Assembly (NCBI RefSeq): GCF_004833285.1
Contig: NZ_STFG01000029.1
Location: 1-35,658 of the forward strand
Origin: Lampropedia puyangensis
GTDB lineage: Bacteria > Pseudomonadota > Gammaproteobacteria > Burkholderiales > Burkholderiaceae_C
Length of the DNA stretch: 35,658 nucleotides
Reading direction: 5' to 3'
Positions 7,456 through 17,434 of this stretch are shown one piece after another (within the stretch, counting starts at the first letter, position 1; every line of letters starts with the position of its first letter). Below the pieces are notes generated by a model. That model saw only the letters and a list, made by a program, of their open reading frames with translations, did no database searches and was not told where the DNA came from. The position numbers and the translations under genes were made by a program.

Positions 7456-8060
7456 ACATCGCGAGATGTCTGCCAGTACAAGCGCATTGCCCAAGGTGCT
7501 TTGCAAAGCTGCAATCACCGTTACAATCACCGGTTCAATCCAAAAATCAGGCGTAGCGCATGGCGCATGCTGGTGGGCTTGGCCTGCTGCACACCATTCG
7601 CCCGCAATCTGGTTGGTCACAACCCTTACTCTCGACATCGAGGTTGGCGCATCACCATGACTTTTGCCTTGACAGCAATTTACCGCTGGGAGCATTGCCA
7701 CACGCTCACCAGCCATGCCATTCGCGTGTATCGTGCATTTCGCGCGTTAATCATCTGGTAACCCACTCTTGGCCCCTACATTGGAAGGCGCCTCATCGGT
7801 TGCGCGCCACCGCCCCAAGTAGGCATAACACCCGCACGCTGACTTCATCAGCAAGCACACCACTGTTTCTGTATTGCAAGGGCGTCATCAGCGCTTCTTT
7901 GCTGGAGGCAACAAAGGCGATATTGGCCTTTTTTTATCCACGCGCAACACAGGAGAAGCTTGCTCGCACTCAGCAGCGCATCAAGTTTTATTGCCGCGGC
8001 ATTCTTTCAGGCACGCCCATTGCGCAGCTGCACGATACCTATTACTTCTGGAGTTTTGAT
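7456..8060. other. Long region without a recognisable gene
   Basis: About 600 bp between the LysR gene and the decarboxylase gene. Several frames stay open on both strands, and one is continuous with the downstream gene from an ATG at 7560, but the translations are rich in His, Ser, Cys and Trp and match no family I recognise. I see no convincing ribosome site before 8061. A terminator-like hairpin lies at 7913-7935. The stretch may be an untranslated leader, a decayed gene, or both. Confidence 0.5.
7913..7935 (+). terminator. Rho-independent terminator-like hairpin upstream of the polyamine genes
   Basis: A six-base stem AAAGGC (7913-7918) and GCCTTT (7926-7931) encloses a seven-base loop and runs into seven consecutive T residues (7929-7935). 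It lies about 125 bases before the chosen start of the carboxynorspermidine decarboxylase gene and 460 bases after the LysR stop. It could end the LysR transcript or act as a leader attenuator. Confidence 0.5.
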
Positions 8061-9188
8061 TTGTCCACCACGGCTACCGTATTCCAAACGCCTTACTACC
8101 GCATTGATGAGTCCAAGCTGCTCATCAACATGCAGCGCATCGCACGCCTGCGTGAGCTCTCAGGGGCCAAAGCCTTGCTGGCACTCAAATGTTTTTCCAC
8201 TTGGTCCGTCTTTCCGTTGATGTGCCAATACATGGATGGCAGCACCTCTTCATCGCTGCACGAAGTCAAACTCGGCTTTCAAAAATTTGGCGGCGAAACG
8301 CACGCTTACTCGGTAGCGTTTGCCGCACACGAAATCGACGAAGTGCTGGCCAACAGCGACAAGGTCATCTTCAATTCGTTAGGCCAGTTGGCACGTTTTG
8401 GCACAGCAGCGCATGCGACCCACAAACCAGTAGGCCTGCGCGTCAACCCGGGCACCAGCAACTCGCCCTATTTACTGGCTGACCCTGCACGCCCACACAG
8501 CCGCTTGGGCGAGGCCGACCCAGACAAAATCGCTGCTGTCATCGACCAGCTTTCGGGTTTCATGTTCCACAACAATTGCGAGAACCGCAGCTTTGAAAGC
8601 TTTGACCACATGCTCGGTCAGATCGAGGCGCGTTTTGGCCACTTGTTGCAAAGCGAAGGAATTGCCTGGGTCAGCTTAGGCGGCGGCATTCACTTTTGTG
8701 ATGAAGGCTACCCGCTGGAGCAACTGGCGGCGCGTCTGCGCGCCTTTGCAGACCAATACCAAGTGCAAGTGTATTTGGAGCCCGGCGAAGCCTCCATCAC
8801 CAACAGCGCCACGCTGGAGGTGAGCGTGCTCGACATCAACGTCAACGGCAAGCAACTGGCGATTGTGGACAGCTCGACCGAAGCGCACATGCTCGATTTG
8901 CTGATCTACAACTTGCCCGCACGCATCGAGCCCAACACGGGTGAGCATGCGTATCTGGTGTGCGGCAAAACCTGTTTAGCAGGCGATATTTTTGGTGAAT
9001 TCCGCTTTGAGGCGCCCCTGCAAGTGGGTGATCGCATCAGCATTCAAGATGCAGCGGGCTACACCATGGTGAAGAAAAACTGGTTCAACGGTGTGGGCAT
9101 GCCTTCCATCGTGGTGGCCCGCTTGGATGGCACCGAAGAGCTGGTGCAATCGTTTGGGTTTGACGACTACGTCAACAGTCTTTCGTAA
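8061..9188 (+). CDS. nspC: Carboxynorspermidine / carboxyspermidine decarboxylase
   Basis: PLP-dependent fold-III decarboxylase that removes CO2 from carboxynorspermidine or carboxyspermidine to give norspermidine or spermidine in the cytoplasm. With the TTG start at 8061 the protein is 375 residues, the usual NspC length, and begins just before the conserved QTPYYRIDESKLL. The TTG is chosen because GGAG lies seven bases upstream and because the in-frame sequence before it (open from 7560) is not family-like. The PLP lysine is probably Lys43 in ALLALKCFS. Other family motifs are LGGGIHFCDEGYP, YLEPGEA and CGKTCLAGDIFG (Cys301/Cys305), the last supplying the catalytic Cys. The partner synthase follows 190 bp downstream. 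Norspermidine or spermidine as product cannot be decided. Confidence 0.9.
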   Translation: MSTTATVFQTPYYRIDESKLLINMQRIARLRELSGAKALLALKCFSTWSVFPLMCQYMDGSTSSSLHEVKLGFQKFGGETHAYSVAFAAHEIDEVLANSDKVIFNSLGQLARFGTAAHATHKPVGLRVNPGTSNSPYLLADPARPHSRLGEADPDKIAAVIDQLSGFMFHNNCENRSFESFDHMLGQIEARFGHLLQSEGIAWVSLGGGIHFCDEGYPLEQLAARLRAFADQYQVQVYLEPGEASITNSATLEVSVLDINVNGKQLAIVDSSTEAHMLDLLIYNLPARIEPNTGEHAYLVCGKTCLAGDIFGEFRFEAPLQVGDRISIQDAAGYTMVKKNWFNGVGMPSIVVARLDGTEELVQSFGFDDYVNSLS

Positions 9189-9228
9189 AAGCGAAGTGGG
9201 ATTTGGGTTCATGACTTTGGCAAGCCTG

Positions 9229-9298
9229 CCGTTCACCCTGAGCCCGTCGAAGGGGCAGCACTGCTGCACAGCGACTTCGACAAGTTCAGTCCGATCGG
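9229..9298. repeat. REP-like imperfect palindrome
   Basis: Two 24-base arms (9229-9252 and 9275-9298) pair at 17 of 24 positions around a 22-base loop. The cores are CTGAGCCCGTCGAAG and CTTCGACAAGTTCAG. Closely similar palindromes are widespread between genes in Burkholderiales and other Proteobacteria. This copy sits in the 190-bp gap between the two polyamine genes and would form a hairpin in their shared transcript. Confidence 0.65.
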
Positions 9299-9378
9299 CG
9301 GCATGCCTTGGCCTTTGCCCAACACTCACATCAACTGCCGCAATGTCGCGGTGAATGTCATAGGGGGATTTGTGCGAA

Positions 9379-10647
9379 ATGAAGAAGAACGTTTTGATTA
9401 TCGGCGCTGGTGGAGTTGGGCAGGTAGCGGCACATAAATGCGCGCAACACAACCGTTTGCTGGGTGATATTCACATCGCCTCGCGCAGCATCAAAAAATG
9501 CTTGGCGGTGATCGACAGCGTGCATGAAAAAGGCGCACTGCAAAATCCAAAAGGCGTACTCAAAGCCCATCAATTGGATGCGATGGATACCGCTGCGGTC
9601 AAACGCTTGATCGAGCAAACGGGCAGCCAAATCGTCATCAACCTTGGCCATGCCTTCGTCAATATGAGCGTGCTGCAAGCCTGCATCGAAACTGGTGCCG
9701 CTTACTTAGACACCGCCATCCACGAAGATGCCGACAAAATTTGCGAAACCCCACCTTGGTACGCCAACCACGAGTGGAAGCGCAAAGCCATCTGTGCGGA
9801 AAAAGGCATCACCGCTATCTTGGGCTGCGGTTTTGACCCCGGTGTGGTCAACGCCTATGCCGCGCTGGCCGTCAATGAGTATTTCGACAGCGTCGATTCG
9901 ATCGACATCATCGACATCAACGCAGGCAGCCACGGCAAATACTTCGCCACCAACTTCAACCCAGAGATCAACTTCCGCGAGTTCACGGGCCAAGTTTGGT
10001 CGTGGCAAAACGGCTGTTGGCAATCGAACAAAATGTTCGAGGTCAAGCGCACCGATGACCTGCCCGTGGTAGGCCAGCAAACCGCGTACCTCACCGGCCA
10101 CGACGAGCTGCACTCGCTCTCGCAAAACCTGAACGTGCCCAACATCCGCTTTTGGATGGGCTTTGGCGAGCACTACATCAACGTGTTCAACGTGCTGCGC
10201 AACATCGGTCTGCTGTCTGAAAAACCGGTCACGCTCGACAACGGCCAACAAGTCGTGCCGCTGCAATTGGTCAAAGCCGTGTTGCCAGACCCTGCATCGC
10301 TCGCGCCCGGCTACATCGGCAAAACCTGCATTGGCAACCTCGTTAAAGGCACGAAAGACGGCCAGCCGCGCGAAGTCTTCGTCTACAACGTCGCCGACCA
10401 CGTCGAAGCCTTTGCCGAAGTAGGCAGCCAAGGCATCTCCTACACCGCAGGCGTGCCCGCCGTGGCCGCTGCCATCCTCATCGCCCAAGGCCAGTGGGAT
10501 GTAAAGAAAATGGCCAACGTGGAGGAACTGCCCTACCAGCCCTTCATCAACCTGATGAACCGCATGGGCCTGCCCACCCACCTGCGCGAAGCCGGGCAAG
10601 AAGACAGCCTTATCAGCTTTGATCTGGAAGAAACCAGCGAAGCATAA
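9379..10647 (+). CDS. Carboxynorspermidine / carboxyspermidine synthase (saccharopine dehydrogenase family)
   Basis: NADPH-dependent reductive condensation of aspartate semialdehyde with a diamine (putrescine or diaminopropane) to carboxyspermidine or carboxynorspermidine. The 422-residue protein has an N-terminal Rossmann fold with VLIIGAGGVGQVAAHKCAQH (GAGGVG at 9-14) and the saccharopine dehydrogenase layout, including ILGCGFDPGVVNAYA. Pairing with the NspC gene decides between this function and lysine metabolism. The start is ATG at 9379, with GGGGGA about ten bases upstream; a TTG at 9370 is also possible but too close to that site. No diaminobutyrate aminotransferase/decarboxylase for diaminopropane is in the window, so spermidine from putrescine is at least as likely as norspermidine. 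Confidence 0.88.
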   Translation: MKKNVLIIGAGGVGQVAAHKCAQHNRLLGDIHIASRSIKKCLAVIDSVHEKGALQNPKGVLKAHQLDAMDTAAVKRLIEQTGSQIVINLGHAFVNMSVLQACIETGAAYLDTAIHEDADKICETPPWYANHEWKRKAICAEKGITAILGCGFDPGVVNAYAALAVNEYFDSVDSIDIIDINAGSHGKYFATNFNPEINFREFTGQVWSWQNGCWQSNKMFEVKRTDDLPVVGQQTAYLTGHDELHSLSQNLNVPNIRFWMGFGEHYINVFNVLRNIGLLSEKPVTLDNGQQVVPLQLVKAVLPDPASLAPGYIGKTCIGNLVKGTKDGQPREVFVYNVADHVEAFAEVGSQGISYTAGVPAVAAAILIAQGQWDVKKMANVEELPYQPFINLMNRMGLPTHLREAGQEDSLISFDLEETSEA

Positions 10648-13135: not shown

Positions 13136-13191
13136 TCGTCATCTCGCATTCATGCATCTGTCATGAATTATTCATCAGGCATGCCTACATT
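13136..13191 (+). promoter_or_regulatory. Candidate PhoB box array and -10 element
   Basis: Four seven-base direct half-sites are spaced at exactly 11 bp: TCGTCAT (13136), CATTCAT (13147), CTGTCAT (13158) and TATTCAT (13169). All share the TCAT end, and one is the perfect PhoB half-site CTGTCAT. Four-base spacers and an 11-bp period are the known Pho-box geometry. TACATT at 13186-13191 lies ten bases after the last half-site, the position of the -10 hexamer in PhoB-activated promoters. Transcription would start within a base or two of the glycosyltransferase ATG. PhoB binding is inferred. Confidence 0.65.
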
Positions 13192-13199
13192 GGTGTGTC

Positions 13200-14462
13200 A
13201 TGAACCAAGCACCAGCGCCTAACACCTCTGCCTCCAGTGCCCCTGACCTGCGCGGTCAACACCAGAGCTTGCGCATTTGTCTGGTCACTGAAACCTTTCC
13301 GCCCGAGGTCAATGGTGTCGCCATGACTGCGGGTCGTGTAGTCAATGGTTTGCTGGCCGCAGGACACAAGGTGCATATCGTCCGGCCGCGCCAGCCCGAA
13401 GAAGACCGCGCCCACTTGGCCAGTTTTGCCGATTTGCCAACAACGCTGGTGCATGGCGTTGGCGTGCCTGGCTACAACGGTATACGCTTTGGCCTTCCTG
13501 CAGGTAATGCCCTCGAACGAGCATGGCGCCACCAAACACCAGATGTGGTGCATGTCCTCACCGAAGGGCCGCTAGGTTACTCTGCAGTCAAAACGGCCCA
13601 GCGACTTGGCCTGCCCATCGTAGGCGGCTACCACACGCACTTTGACCGCTACACCGAACACTACCGATTTGGTTTTCTGCGCCAAACCGTCACCAATTAC
13701 TTGGTGCGCTTTCATAACCGCTGCCATATCAATCTGGCGCCCACTCAAGAATTGGCGCAAAGTTTGATGCAGCAAGGCATGAAAGAAGTGCGGGTGATGT
13801 CACGCGGCGTGGACCGCAGCCTGTTCCATCCCCAACATCGCAGTACAGCCCTGCGCACGCAATGGGGCGTTGGCAAGGACGATCTGGTACTGCTGTGTGT
13901 TGGACGTCTTGCTGCAGAAAAACAGCTCGATTGGGTGGTTCGTGCCTGGCAAGCGGTGCGCCAAGACAAGCCATACAGCAAACTGGTGCTGGTGGGGGGA
14001 GGCCCGGAATACCAGCGTTTGGCGAGCCAATATCCTGACGTGATTCTCACCGGGCCAGTCAGCAGCCATGACTTAGGCGCCCATTACGCTTCTGCAGATT
14101 TGTTTGTCTTTGCCAGCATGAGCGAAACCTTTGGCAATGTAGTGCAGGAGGCCCTGGCCAGTGGCGTACCTGTGGTGGGGTTTGACTATGCAGCCGCTCG
14201 GGAGTTGATCCACCACGATGTCAATGGTGTTCTGGTTCCTTTTGGCGACCAACAGGCCTTTATTCAGGCCACCGTGCAGGCGGCAAGCCAACCGGCACAC
14301 CTTCGCCAAATGGCGCGTCAAGCCGCCGAAACTGGGCGTAGCTGGAAAAGTGTGCTGCAAGACCTTATTGCCAACTACCACGATGCAATTGACCTAGCCT
14401 CCATCGTGGATCATCGAACGCAAGGAAGCCCCCATGCACACTCCACTCAAAACGTTCCATGA
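13200..14462 (+). CDS. GT4 glycosyltransferase (SQD2/MgtA-like), probably lipid-directed
   Basis: Retaining family-4 glycosyltransferase of 420 residues with two Rossmann domains. The first begins at about residue 24 (LRICLVTETFPPEVNGV) and contains GGYHTHFDRYTEHY near 143-156; the second contains VGRLAAEKQL (Arg236, Lys241), VLVGGGPE and the EX7E pair Glu309/Glu317 in SETFGNVVQEALASG, for donor nucleotide-sugar binding. Overall it resembles GT4 enzymes that glycosylate diacylglycerol or phosphatidylinositol, such as plant SQD2. It is first in a unit with a lipid-phosphatase gene and a UDP-glucose dehydrogenase gene, behind a PhoB-box-like array, so I infer a glycosyl- or glucuronosyl-diacylglycerol synthase. 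The first 23 residues look non-conserved; a TTG at 13269 is an alternative start. Confidence 0.85.
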   Translation: MNQAPAPNTSASSAPDLRGQHQSLRICLVTETFPPEVNGVAMTAGRVVNGLLAAGHKVHIVRPRQPEEDRAHLASFADLPTTLVHGVGVPGYNGIRFGLPAGNALERAWRHQTPDVVHVLTEGPLGYSAVKTAQRLGLPIVGGYHTHFDRYTEHYRFGFLRQTVTNYLVRFHNRCHINLAPTQELAQSLMQQGMKEVRVMSRGVDRSLFHPQHRSTALRTQWGVGKDDLVLLCVGRLAAEKQLDWVVRAWQAVRQDKPYSKLVLVGGGPEYQRLASQYPDVILTGPVSSHDLGAHYASADLFVFASMSETFGNVVQEALASGVPVVGFDYAAARELIHHDVNGVLVPFGDQQAFIQATVQAASQPAHLRQMARQAAETGRSWKSVLQDLIANYHDAIDLASIVDHRTQGSPHAHSTQNVP

Positions 14463-15045
14463 AACTCCCCCTCACATAGGTGAGCCCCCTCAGCTAGAGC
14501 CCGCTTTGCCCTGGACCGCGGCAGGCACGGCAAACAGCTTTTCCCGCAAGGAGTTGCTGTTGTGCGCAGCCGCACAACGCAAACTCAAACACCCCTATTT
14601 CCTGCGGCTGATGCGGCTTGTCAGTCGCCTTGGCAATGGCATAGCCTGGTACTTTTTAATCGCCTGCATCGCCATCAGTGGCAGCCCTCAGGCCATGCAG
14701 GCCAGCACACTGATGAGCATCGCTGGCATGGCAGGGCTGGTGCTCTATAAATGGTTGAAAAAAACCACCAGTCGCCCACGCCCTTATGCACGTGATGGGC
14801 ACATCATTGCCTTGACTGCTGCCCTCGATGAATTCAGCTTTCCTTCCGGGCATACCTTGCATGCTGTCGCATTCACCACGGTTGCTGTAGCGTTCTTCCC
14901 TTTGCTTGCCTGGATTCTGGTGCCGTTTACTGCGTTGATTGCACTGTCACGCGTCGTGCTGGGCTTGCATTACCCCAGTGACGTATTAGCAGGCGCCTCA
15001 ATTGGCGCCACCTTGGCCGCGACCATTTTGCTTTGGGCGGCATGA
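14434..15045 (+). CDS. PAP2-family membrane phosphatase
   Basis: Integral membrane phosphatase of the type 2 phosphatidic acid phosphatase family, 203 residues with about four or five hydrophobic segments after residue 65. All three catalytic motifs are intact: KX6RP (Lys109 to Arg116-Pro117), PSGH (137-140) and SRX5HX3D (Ser172, Arg173, His179, Asp183). The ATG lies 29 bases inside the end of the glycosyltransferase gene and is preceded by AAGGAAG six bases upstream, implying coupled expression. It could release diacylglycerol from phosphatidic acid for the glycosyltransferase, or instead act on undecaprenyl pyrophosphate or another lipid phosphate; sequence alone does not decide. Confidence 0.92.
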   Translation: MHTPLKTFHETPPHIGEPPQLEPALPWTAAGTANSFSRKELLLCAAAQRKLKHPYFLRLMRLVSRLGNGIAWYFLIACIAISGSPQAMQASTLMSIAGMAGLVLYKWLKKTTSRPRPYARDGHIIALTAALDEFSFPSGHTLHAVAFTTVAVAFFPLLAWILVPFTALIALSRVVLGLHYPSDVLAGASIGATLAATILLWAA

Positions 15046-15079
15046 AGCCATTGAGAACCATCCATCAAAAGGAGTCGCC

Positions 15080-16453
15080 ATGCGCATAGTTGTGATTGGA
15101 ACTGGATATGTTGGCTTGGTCAGTGCCAGCTGCTTTGCCGAAATGGGACACCATGTAATTTGCGTCGATACCAACGCAGAACGCATTGCGCAATTGCGCC
15201 AAGGGCACATTCCCATTCATGAACCGGGACTGGACGCCATGGTGCGCAATAACCATCAGCAAAGCAGGTTGCATTTCACCACTGAACTGAGACCCGCGCT
15301 TGCCAACGTCGACGTATGCTTCATCGCCGTCGGCACCCCATCCTCTGCCGATGGTGCGGCAGATACACGACAAGTATTTATGGTTGCAGAAGACCTGGGC
15401 CGTTATCTGCCTGCGGCCTGCGTAGTGGTGAATAAATCGACGGTCCCTGTAGGAACAGCTGAACGTGTTGAACGGGCCATTGGCGAACAACTGCAGCAAA
15501 GACAGGTCAGTTTTACGGTGTCCGTTGCCAGCAACCCTGAATTTTTACGCGAAGGCTGTGCCATTGAAGACTTTATGCGTCCGGATCGGATCATCATCGG
15601 CACCGCCGACACCCGCAGCACACAAGTACTGCAAACACTGTACGCACCTTTTTTACGCAAAAATCCACGTCTGCTGGTCATGGGCCGCCGCGAAGCAGAA
15701 ATGAGCAAATATGCCGCCAATGCCATGCTGGCCACGCGCATTTCATTCATGAACGAGATGGCTTGCCTGAGCGAGAGTCTTGGTGTTGATATCGAATCCG
15801 TTCGATTAGGCATTGGTTCTGACAGCCGCATCGGCTATGACTTTCTTTACGCTGGCTGTGGCTACGGCGGCTCCTGCTTTCCGAAAGACGTTCGTGCTCT
15901 AATCCACACAGCACAGCGTCATGGCTTGCCCAGCCATATTCTGCAGGCCGTAGAGGAACGCAACACCATTCAAAAAGCGGGCTTATTCGTCAAACTCAAG
16001 CAACACCTGGGCACGTTGGAGGGGCGGCGTATTGCACTATGGGGCTTAGCCTTCAAGCCGGGCACCGACGACATTCGCGAAGCACCTGCGCTGCAATTGC
16101 TCGAATCACTCATACAAGCTGGAGCACAGGTGCACGCCTATGACCCAGTGGCCTGCGACAACGTGGCGCACACTGTACCAACGCAATGGATCGACAGTGC
16201 ACAACTGACCCTGTATGCGAGCGATCCATACCAAGCTCTTGAGGGCGCGCAAGCCTTGGTGGTGGCTACAGAATGGAAGCCCTTTCGCCAACCCGACTGG
16301 AAGCGCATTGCCACACTGCTGCAAACACCTCTGGTTATTGATGGACGCAACATCTACGACCCACAAACCATGCGCGAAAATGGTTTTACCCATGTGGGCA
16401 TTGGTCGCGGTATGCAGAGCACAGGCTATGCAGCACTCTCACGCGCAGCCTGA
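15080..16453 (+). CDS. ugd: UDP-glucose 6-dehydrogenase
   Basis: NAD-dependent two-step oxidation of UDP-glucose to UDP-glucuronate in the cytoplasm. The 457-residue protein starts with MRIVVIGTGYVGLVSASCFAE, has VGTPSSADG, SNPEFLREG (about 151-159), KYAANAML (210-217) and the catalytic Cys266 in GYGGSCFPKD. The ATG at 15080 has AAAAGGAG five bases upstream; the frame is open earlier but overlaps the phosphatase gene. It lies 34 bp after the PAP2 gene and before a terminator, so it is the last gene of that unit. It probably supplies the glucuronate donor for the glycosyltransferase, though surface polysaccharide synthesis would use it too. Confidence 0.95.
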   Translation: MRIVVIGTGYVGLVSASCFAEMGHHVICVDTNAERIAQLRQGHIPIHEPGLDAMVRNNHQQSRLHFTTELRPALANVDVCFIAVGTPSSADGAADTRQVFMVAEDLGRYLPAACVVVNKSTVPVGTAERVERAIGEQLQQRQVSFTVSVASNPEFLREGCAIEDFMRPDRIIIGTADTRSTQVLQTLYAPFLRKNPRLLVMGRREAEMSKYAANAMLATRISFMNEMACLSESLGVDIESVRLGIGSDSRIGYDFLYAGCGYGGSCFPKDVRALIHTAQRHGLPSHILQAVEERNTIQKAGLFVKLKQHLGTLEGRRIALWGLAFKPGTDDIREAPALQLLESLIQAGAQVHAYDPVACDNVAHTVPTQWIDSAQLTLYASDPYQALEGAQALVVATEWKPFRQPDWKRIATLLQTPLVIDGRNIYDPQTMRENGFTHVGIGRGMQSTGYAALSRAA

Positions 16454-16458
16454 AAAAT

Positions 16459-16483
16459 GAAAGAGGCCTCAAAGGCCTCTTTC
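16459..16483. terminator. Bidirectional terminator between convergent ugd and lpxC
   Basis: A perfect 11-base stem, GAAAGAGGCCT (16459-16469) and AGGCCTCTTTC (16473-16483), with a three-base loop lies in the 56-bp gap between the converging genes. A five-base A run on the left gives a T-rich tail for transcripts coming from lpxC; the plus-strand tail is shorter (TTT within the stem end). It can end transcription from both sides. Confidence 0.85.
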
Positions 16484-16509: not shown

Positions 16510-17434
16510 CTACCAAGCCAGTGCTTGTTCCGCAGTAAACCCGCGCGGTGCTTTTTTCTCATCGTCAAAGCTGACGATCTCCCACGCATCCTCTTGTGCC
16601 AGCAAAGCGCGTAGCAACTGGTTATTCATGGCGTGGCCAGAACGATACGCAGAATATGCCGCCAACAGGGGTTTCCCCAAAGCATACAAATCGCCAATCG
16701 CATCGAGAATTTTGTGCCGCACGAACTCGTCGTCGTAGCGCAAGCCTTCTTGGTTCAGCACCTTGTAGTCGTCCATCACTATGGCGTTGTCGTAACCGCC
16801 ACCCAATGCCAACCCATTCGAGCGCAGCACCTCCACATCGCGGGTGAAGCCGAAGGTGCGCGCGCGCAATGTCCTTGACATAATGGCCTTGCCCCATGTC
16901 AAACTCCACTACCTGACCGGTCGAGTCAACAGCCGGATGGCTAAAGTCAATTTGGAAACTCAGCTTGAAACCATCAAAAGGCTCAAAACGTGCCCACTTC
17001 ACATCACCGACACCTTCTGTGCGTACTTCGACAGGTTTGATCACGCGCACAAACTGCTTGGGCGCTGCTTGCAACGCAATACCCGCTTCGCGCAGCAAAT
17101 ACACAAAAGCAGCAGAGGAACCATCCAGAATAGGCACCTCCTCGGCTGTTAAATCGATGTACAGGTTATCTATACCCAGCCCTGCACATGCAGACATGAT
17201 GTGCTCAATGGTGCTGATGCGCGCGCCCTCTCGACCAATCGTAGTGGCCATGCGCGTATCAAAGACAGCCTCTGCGTTGACCTGAACGGGCTCTGGCTGT
17301 GGCAAATCCACACGTGTAAACACAATACCCGTGTTCACTGGCGCTGGGCGCAGGGTCAGCTCCACGCGCCTGCCACTGTGCACGCCGACCCCTACTGCGC
17401 GCGTGCGTTGTTTGATGGTTCTTTGAACTAACAT
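16510..17434 (-). pseudogene. lpxC: lpxC, UDP-3-O-acyl-GlcNAc deacetylase gene split by a frameshift
   Basis: Zinc deacetylase for the committed step of lipid A synthesis. The N-terminal part reads in frame from the ATG at 17434 to about residue 192 ([32 protein letters not shown] with Zn-ligand His78, DGSSAAF), then enters a wrong frame that ends at 16622. The remaining part, from [14 protein letters not shown] to the end at 16510, continues in another frame and holds [11 protein letters not shown] (two Zn ligands) and SGHAMNN (active-site His). The break is in a (GC)5 tract at 16858-16867; one more GC unit would restore a 308-residue protein of normal length. Because lpxC is usually essential, a sequencing error is as likely as a real mutation. 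There is no ribosome site before the ATG. Confidence 0.88.

Follow-up and report, generated by a model that had tools for sequence, protein, structure and literature searches.

A three-gene operon on a 35,658-nucleotide stretch of DNA from Lampropedia puyangensis (positions 1 to 35,658 of contig NZ_STFG01000029.1, assembly GCF_004833285.1; here called the window) probably encodes a PhoB-activated lipid-remodelling system that would make phosphorus-free glycolipids without a phospholipase. Behind a predicted Pho box lie the genes of a GT4 glycosyltransferase, a PAP2-superfamily lipid phosphatase and Ugd, a dehydrogenase of the UDP-glucose 6-dehydrogenase type. The Pho box recurs upstream of nearly all GT4–PAP2 pairs in relatives, the GT4s form a sister clade to those encoded beside the phospholipase PlcP, and PAP2 and PlcP are distributed in near-complementary fashion among GT4-bearing genomes. 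The original prediction, which had read the operon as a phosphate-starvation glycolipid module with PAP2 in place of PlcP, is thus supported overall by this comparison of sequences.

In the proposed mechanism, PhoB would bind the array under phosphate limitation, and RNA polymerase would start at or beside the ATG of the GT4 gene, yielding a leaderless mRNA. PAP2 would take the place of PlcP in the known pathway, turning freshly synthesized phosphatidate into diacylglycerol by dephosphorylation and sparing one phosphate for every lipid, while Ugd would provide UDP-glucuronate. The GT4 would then move glucuronate, perhaps glucose, onto diacylglycerol, and the resulting glucuronosyl- or glucosyl-diacylglycerol would replace phosphate-containing membrane lipids. 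The features concerned are as follows, in window coordinates.

13136 to 13175, plus strand: predicted Pho box with half-sites TCGTCAT, CATTCAT, CTGTCAT and TATTCAT in an exact period of 11 base pairs (bp)
13186 to 13191, plus strand: −10-like hexamer TACATT, ten bases past the last half-site
13200 to 13202, plus strand: predicted leaderless transcription start and inferred start codon ATG, 8 nucleotides (nt) past the −10 hexamer, without a Shine–Dalgarno sequence
13200 to 14462, plus strand: GT4 glycosyltransferase of 420 amino acids (aa), a predicted diacylglycerol glycosyltransferase (Pfam PF13692/PF13439; clade sister to PlcP-linked GT4s; GT-B fold)
14434 to 15045, plus strand: PAP2 lipid phosphatase of 203 aa, a predicted phosphatidate phosphatase (PF01569, 79 bits; superfamily motif; fold nearest Bacillus subtilis PgpB)
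15080 to 16453, plus strand: ugd, UDP-glucose 6-dehydrogenase type, 457 aa (PF03721/PF00984/PF03720; TIGR03026 at 450.9 bits, over its cut-off)
16459 to 16483, no strand assigned: 11-bp hairpin between ugd and the convergent lpxC, with its T-run on the minus strand

The three genes are closely packed, as first described, and Pfam domains confirm the identity of each. The PAP2 start overlaps the GT4 end by 29 bp, an overlap claimed for the window only, start codons being ambiguous in other loci; 34 bp separate PAP2 from ugd.

The predicted Pho box array and the start of the first gene

Sites of the PhoB regulon are direct repeats of CTGTCAT-like half-sites, spaced by 11 bp and situated upstream of a −10 element. 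The window array has exactly this build: its TCAT cores start at 13139, 13150, 13161 and 13172, and TACATT follows ten bases on, reproducing the coordinates of the original prediction. In four relatives from the genus, TACATT or TAGAGT occupies the same position. A genome-wide scan for PhoB-type sites, proposed as a check when the operon was first described, singles this array out. In the 3.97-Mb window genome, the pattern TCAY-N7-TCAY-N7-TCAY-N7-TCAY is matched exactly only by the operon array itself; allowing one mismatch adds a single site, and the reversed pattern, used as a control, has zero matches. Within the window, the array reaches a score of 38.0 and the next best site 29.0, shifted registers of the same array being set aside.

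A looser scan of the window genome (three half-sites, one mismatch) gave 19 hits against 15 in the reversed control. This count alone carries no significance; its informative part is the identity of the downstream genes. Six of the 17 hits outside the window begin roughly 60–115 bases before the starts of classic or plausible Pho genes, encoding a PstS-like binding protein, an alkaline phosphatase, polyphosphate kinase (ppk), AMP nucleosidase, a purple-acid-phosphatase-like protein and another PAP2-superfamily protein; the PstS identity and the alkaline-phosphatase start codon are our own reading. With Pho-type genes behind these six sites, the motif can credibly be called a Pho box here. The second PAP2-superfamily protein of the window genome (L056, on contig C3 of G000) is apparently secreted, and its Pho-like site begins 75 bases before its start.

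Conservation across relatives is stronger evidence for the array than rarity within one genome. Searches with the window GT4 (P0001) covered 40 genomes, 250 genomes of the family (91 with hits at E ≤ 1e-60) and 300 of the order (112 at E ≤ 1e-50). The 136 GT4 loci analysed are made up of the window itself, 15 surrounding the best hits in the 40-genome search, 100 from the order and 20 from the family, the last chosen by high score rather than randomly; the analysis covers 104 of the 114 order-level places besides the window, omitting the ten lowest in rank. Loci with PAP2 directly downstream of GT4 are here called type A (59 loci), those with at least one of an aminotransferase-III, an Mpo1-like protein or a phosphatidylserine decarboxylase nearby type B (51), and other contexts type C (26). 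For each upstream region, the best array, scored with half-site weights that we built ourselves on the E. coli consensus CTGTCAT, was compared with those of 300 dinucleotide shuffles, with the reversed sequence as control.

The original prediction had staked itself on the recurrence of the array in relatives, and recur it does. Four half-sites at p ≤ 0.01 are present in 55 of 59 type A loci, all except L067, L085, L089 and L129, compared with 18/51 of type B and 16/26 of type C. Three half-sites at the same threshold are found in 49/59, 18/51 and 16/26, respectively, against 1/59, 1/51 and 0/26 in the reversed control; at p ≤ 0.05 the numbers rise to 57/59, 29/51 and 19/26. When the five loci of the genus are aligned (the stretch from L033 ending before its start codon), 20 of the 22 invariant columns fall in half-site cores or in the CCTA of the −10 region. 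On these sequence patterns, the predicted Pho box is almost certainly a conserved regulatory feature.

Conserved along with the array is a fixed distance to the first gene. Neither a ribosome-binding site nor a leader lies upstream of the GT4 start in the window, while Shine–Dalgarno-like sequences, AAGGAAG and AAAGGAG, precede the ATG codons of PAP2 and ugd. Among type A loci, 55 of 59 have an in-frame ATG or GTG 22–25 nt past the best array, compared with 2.7% for positions drawn at random from the same windows; the figures are 15/51 for type B (null 4.1%) and 15/26 for type C (null 3.4%). In 36 of the 59, no earlier in-frame ATG or GTG separates this codon from the array; in 12, the first one comes at 14 nt, within the −10 region. 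The base preceding the GT4 start is C in 48 of 55. A Shine–Dalgarno 5-mer is found ahead of this start in 1/55 and an SD-like 4-mer in 5/55, compared with a 5-mer ahead of at least one candidate PAP2 start in 40/55, a count favoured by the several candidate starts allowed per PAP2. Leaderless mRNAs are marked by a −10 element six to nine bases before the start codon and by the lack of a Shine–Dalgarno sequence; the GT4 genes fit this pattern, which predicts a conserved leaderless mRNA. The PstS-like gene of the window genome has a Shine–Dalgarno-bearing leader, so the leaderless geometry is not general to Pho promoters there. Leaderless genes are reported from 9 of 71 beta-proteobacterial genomes (PMC3160421, in excerpt).

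PAP2, PlcP and the supply of diacylglycerol

The PAP2 superfamily is recognized by the motifs K-x6-RP, PSGH and SR-x5-H-x3-D. The window protein possesses all three, in addition to its PF01569 match, and all 59 type A loci preserve the residues concerned (K109, R116-P117, P137-S-G-H140, S172-R173, H179 and D183) without change. Its structure model (pLDDT 88.4) is closest to B. subtilis PgpB, with LpxE also among the fold matches; the modelled fold is that of a lipid phosphatase and does not name the substrate. Judged from its genetic setting, phosphatidate is quite probably that substrate.

The distribution of PlcP lends this proposal its context. The query (P0004, from L040) was named by sequence and place, its Pfam match being a metallophosphoesterase. 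It finds no homologue at E ≤ 0.001 in the window genome (99.57% complete) and none at 1e-20 in nine other genomes of the genus (two of them only 77–80% complete); the same query, as a positive control, detects PlcP in 22 of 40 relatives. The 300 order-level genomes include 148 with PlcP and 67 with a PAP2 orthologue. Of these 300, 112 bear the GT4, and PlcP accompanies it in 12 of the 56 that have an adjacent PAP2 versus 48 of the 56 that do not (Fisher p 5.6e-12; PAP2 adjacency in G293 read from coordinates only). The contrast persists when genomes are collapsed by genus (6/26 versus 23/30, p 1.3e-4) or by family (4/18 versus 15/20, p 0.003). In all, 106 of the 112 have a PAP2 orthologue or PlcP, and 44 have an adjacent PAP2 and no PlcP.

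The same alternation is found within a single genus, g212, where two loci read dgkA-GT4-PAP2 (L151, L153) and a third reads dgkA-GT4-small open reading frame-PlcP (L152), with no PAP2 remnant in the 8 kb examined; PlcP is additionally encoded at another site in the L151 genome. Both enzymes can share one cluster, as in L082 (GT4-PAP2-PlcP) and L215 (GT4-PlcP-PAP2). Near-complementary distribution and exchange within a genus support the idea of a variant module built on PAP2 rather than PlcP. The simplest reading is that the GT4 would depend on a supply of diacylglycerol, which PAP2 and PlcP could each provide.

Conceivably, the window operon is part of an ordinary PlcP–Agt system, its PlcP encoded elsewhere or overlooked by the search and its PAP2 an accessory. 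The 12 PAP2-adjacent genomes that also hold PlcP, and the two clusters that hold both enzymes, lend themselves to this account. However, a query that succeeds in 22 of 40 relatives finds nothing in the window genome or in nine members of its genus, and 44 of the 56 PAP2-adjacent genomes are devoid of PlcP, which makes the account improbable.

Several genes recur beside the GT4 loci; their counts, taken from open frames clustered over the region from −2.6 to +6 kb, are probably minimum values. The gene dgkA is near 36 of the 136 loci (26 type A, 10 type C), its identity having been checked by PF01219 in L042; olsB is near 24 and olsA near 16, although in L037 their models matched below cut-off. 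In 35 loci, L042 included, dgkA lies upstream on the same strand as GT4. Wherever a Pho array sits between the two, its promoter would induce GT4-PAP2 without dgkA. A zinc-dependent phospholipase C-like gene (PF00882) occurs in 27 of 136 loci, 26 of them type A, downstream and on the strand opposite to GT4-PAP2; it was checked in L037 (8317–9204, minus strand) and could be a further source of diacylglycerol. Type B loci (e.g., L036, L041, L143, L163, L173 and L185) feature a cluster of aminotransferase-III-like, Mpo1-like and phosphatidylserine decarboxylase genes, often with an LplT-like transporter, which may make another lipid.

The glycosyltransferase, its probable donor and rival products

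A FastTree tree of 151 sequences places the 136 GT4s in one clade (support 0.973), sister to 11 PlcP-adjacent GT4s (1.0), with which the window protein shares 28–35% identity. Agt enzymes are represented in this tree by these PlcP-adjacent GT4s alone. The five loci of the genus form a clade (0.999), and several inner nodes of the tree are weakly supported. A closest kinship to polysaccharide enzymes would have spoken against the original prediction; the sister relationship to PlcP-linked GT4s, together with the recurrence of dgkA, plcP and ols as neighbours, favours a lipid role. The AlphaFold model (mean pLDDT 86.3) has an ordinary GT-B fold, and a structure search returned generic GT-B enzymes (BshA, MshA, PimB′, PimA) that are of no help on the acceptor. 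SQD2, to which the GT4 had been likened, is not named among the matches listed, and the likeness finds no support, no direct sequence comparison with it having been made. From ancestry and neighbourhood, the GT4 is very probably a diacylglycerol glycosyltransferase.

The donor is suggested by the third gene. In the window genome, G001 and G006, a single hit over the PF03721 cut-off is of UDP-glucose-dehydrogenase type, namely the ugd of the operon; one other dehydrogenase in the window genome exceeds the same cut-off, and its nearest models are of UDP-ManNAc/GlcNAc type. Nine of the 136 loci have ugd near GT4: in the window, L031 and L032 it is downstream on the same strand, and the other six are type B (L039, L045, L087, L172, L184 and L185). 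In two genomes with GT4-PAP2 and no adjacent ugd (G002, G003), an E. coli-type Ugd is encoded at another site that has no good Pho array; G003 also has one more short hit that barely exceeds the cut-off. The notion that the operon is the sole uronate supply in every relative is ruled out by these two. Glucuronate is a rather likely donor for the GT4 of the window, and glucuronosyl-diacylglycerol the likely product wherever ugd is operonic.

Several observations weigh against this reading of the operon as a whole. An adjacent ugd is found in only 3 of the 59 GT4-PAP2 loci. The top curated match of the GT4 is GpgS, which glycosylates phosphatidylglycerol. The PAP2 sequence does not fix the substrate, phosphatidate coming from context: its nearest curated models, undecaprenyl-diphosphatase SepP (54 bits, cut-off 250) and PgpB, are far below cut-off, and the best sequence match of its profile in the PDB is Aquifex LpxE (60.6 bits). 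Replacement is not strict, since 12 of 56 PAP2-adjacent genomes also have PlcP, and neither is coupling, PAP2 being present in 9 of 188 genomes without the GT4. In the nine families holding both kinds, the contrast is weaker (PlcP in 10/23 versus 24/26), and in family f15 it is 4/5 for PAP2-adjacent genomes versus 2/2. The array is rarer in GT4 loci without PAP2 (18/51 and 16/26 at p ≤ 0.01), and at p ≤ 0.05 the reversed control passes 7/59, 6/51 and 0/26 of types A, B and C. Lastly, the cassette is patchy: 5 of the 10 genus genomes in the 40-genome search have no close GT4, and the 29 other family loci analysed are all type B, none with PAP2 next to GT4. Among the loci analysed from the window family, type A was seen only in the five of the genus; farther afield, carriers of GT4-PAP2 include Thiobacillus thioparus DSM 505 (L209) and Ectothiorhodospira haloalkaliphila (L204).

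The LpxE match opens the way to a different product. PAP2 could salvage phosphate as a lipid A 1-phosphatase of the LpxE kind, with the GT4 and Ugd, the supplier of an acid sugar, putting uronic acid in the place of that phosphate. LpxE is both the best PDB sequence match and a fold match, and lpxC is the convergent neighbour in the window, with the same gene family in L031 and L032. Against this, the LpxE model (NF007159) scores 23.3 bits, its cut-off being 177, and at 1e-5 LpxE is matched by 6 of 20 PAP2 members, compared with 20 of 20 for PgpB and SepP. The lpxC-family neighbour is present in 3 of 16 loci examined, all from the window genus, while elsewhere dgkA, ols and plcP recur. Lipid A or lipopolysaccharide remodelling would also leave the PAP2–PlcP exchange unexplained, and is very unlikely.

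No more likely is a GpgS-like activity, in which the GT4 would glycosylate phosphatidylglycerol and PAP2 would supply it as a phosphatidylglycerophosphatase. GpgS is indeed the top NCBIfam hit of the GT4 (171.6 bits), ahead of alpha-monoglucosyl-diacylglycerol synthase (100.6 bits, cut-off 400), and PgpB is a fold neighbour of PAP2. But the GpgS model (NF053787) has a cut-off of 480 bits, which is not approached, and three PlcP-linked GT4s also match GpgS first, at 77–83 bits, such that shared ancestry may explain the resemblance; in the family search for GpgS, no control genome scored over the cut-off. A phosphorus-containing product would make little sense under a Pho promoter, and the P. 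aeruginosa gpgS operon has, in excerpts of its description, a deacetylase and a predicted flippase (PMC12713373), whereas the window has PAP2 and ugd. Least credible is a surface glycan module, with the GT4 and Ugd building a teichuronic-like or exopolysaccharide glucuronate polymer and PAP2 recycling undecaprenyl diphosphate: Ugd resembles TuaD (471 bits, below the cut-off of 700) and SepP is the best NCBIfam model of PAP2, yet the three-gene operon lacks a polymerase, a flippase or a second glycosyltransferase, the GT4-PAP2 pairing is found in 59 loci and ugd in only three of them, and the recurrent neighbours are dgkA, ols and plcP.

Beyond ugd lies the hairpin that had been described as the operon's terminator. 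The hairpin is real; its T-run, however, is on the minus strand, not the operon strand. It hence better suits the convergent lpxC side, and termination of the operon there would require it to act in both directions. In the window, lpxC itself is in two frames (16510–17434, minus strand), a 270-aa frame covering positions 2–186 of the LpxC model and a 130-aa frame covering 177–295; the family member in L031 is one 308-aa frame. Since lpxC is normally essential, the split is likely a sequencing or assembly error. Elsewhere in the window (7560–10647, plus strand), adjoining carboxynorspermidine decarboxylase-like and synthase-like genes (380 and 442 bits, both under curated cut-offs) form the gene pair of an alternative polyamine pathway.

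A wider reading and relation to known systems

Lipid remodelling in heterotrophs has so far been linked to PlcP, which strips existing phospholipids. The loci compared here raise a wider reading, to which we give about an even chance: a second, phospholipase-independent route that would be widespread in Burkholderiales and reach gammaproteobacteria. A Pho-driven, leaderless GT4-PAP2 cassette, often just 3′ of dgkA, would flip the diacylglycerol/phosphatidate node. With ample phosphate, DgkA would make phosphatidate; when phosphate is scarce, PAP2 and GT4 would draw phosphatidate into glycolipid. The GT4 would be served by PAP2 or PlcP, repeatedly exchanged, and leaderless translation of this first gene would itself be conserved. 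If true, this route represents a different economy, one that uses newly made phosphatidate and avoids new phospholipid without requiring the breakdown of old. Surveys track plcP, as excerpts of two of them indicate (PMC4796936, PMC9239053), and bacteria using PAP2 would therefore be scored as unable to remodel. The cassette also provides a natural experiment, within one genus, on feeding a glycosyltransferase by PAP2 or PlcP, as well as a stress promoter that is conserved and apparently leaderless.

Among the matches listed by a search of open-licence PubMed Central, which covers neither subscription papers nor preprints, titles and abstract openings indicate no Pho-controlled GT4-PAP2 operon; nor does one appear in excerpts of PMC4796936, PMC8528852, PMC9239053 or PMC3972451. 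Of the characterised enzymes, GpgS, the GlcNAc-phosphatidylglycerol synthase of P. aeruginosa, is the top model for the GT4, but at a fraction of its cut-off and with other operon partners. PAP2 phosphatases of the PgpB/LpxE type share motif and fold with the window PAP2, which differs in falling under the cut-off of each equivalog model matched and in its coupling to a GT4 under a Pho box.

Two routes to diacylglycerol are known, from phosphatidate or from phospholipase C (PMC4796936, in excerpt). The same source states that two marine heterotrophs appear to have no phosphatidate phosphatases, so that PlcP is likely their main source, and that cyanobacteria probably use such phosphatases. The window system resembles the cyanobacterial proposal in deriving the diacylglycerol of its glycolipid from phosphatidate by dephosphorylation (PMC4796936, in excerpt). 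Here, however, phosphatase and glycosyltransferase are joined in a single Pho-box operon of proteobacteria.

The closest likeness is to PlcP–Agt remodelling in Agrobacterium, Phaeobacter, SAR11, P. aeruginosa and Methylosinus, with which the window system shares Pho-box control, a GT4 and a dedicated diacylglycerol-forming enzyme. That pathway (described in excerpts of PMC8528852, PMC9239053 and PMC3972451) yields monoglucosyl- and glucuronosyl-diacylglycerol (PMC8528852, PMC4796936, PMC9239053, PMC3972451, likewise in excerpt). In contrast, the window genome has no detected PlcP, and its proposed source of diacylglycerol is a PAP2 whose gene overlaps that of the GT4. Further differences are the ugd in the operon, the placement of the GT4 in a sister clade and the predicted leaderless mRNA. 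The window system is thus best read as a putative PhoB-driven variant of PlcP–Agt remodelling.

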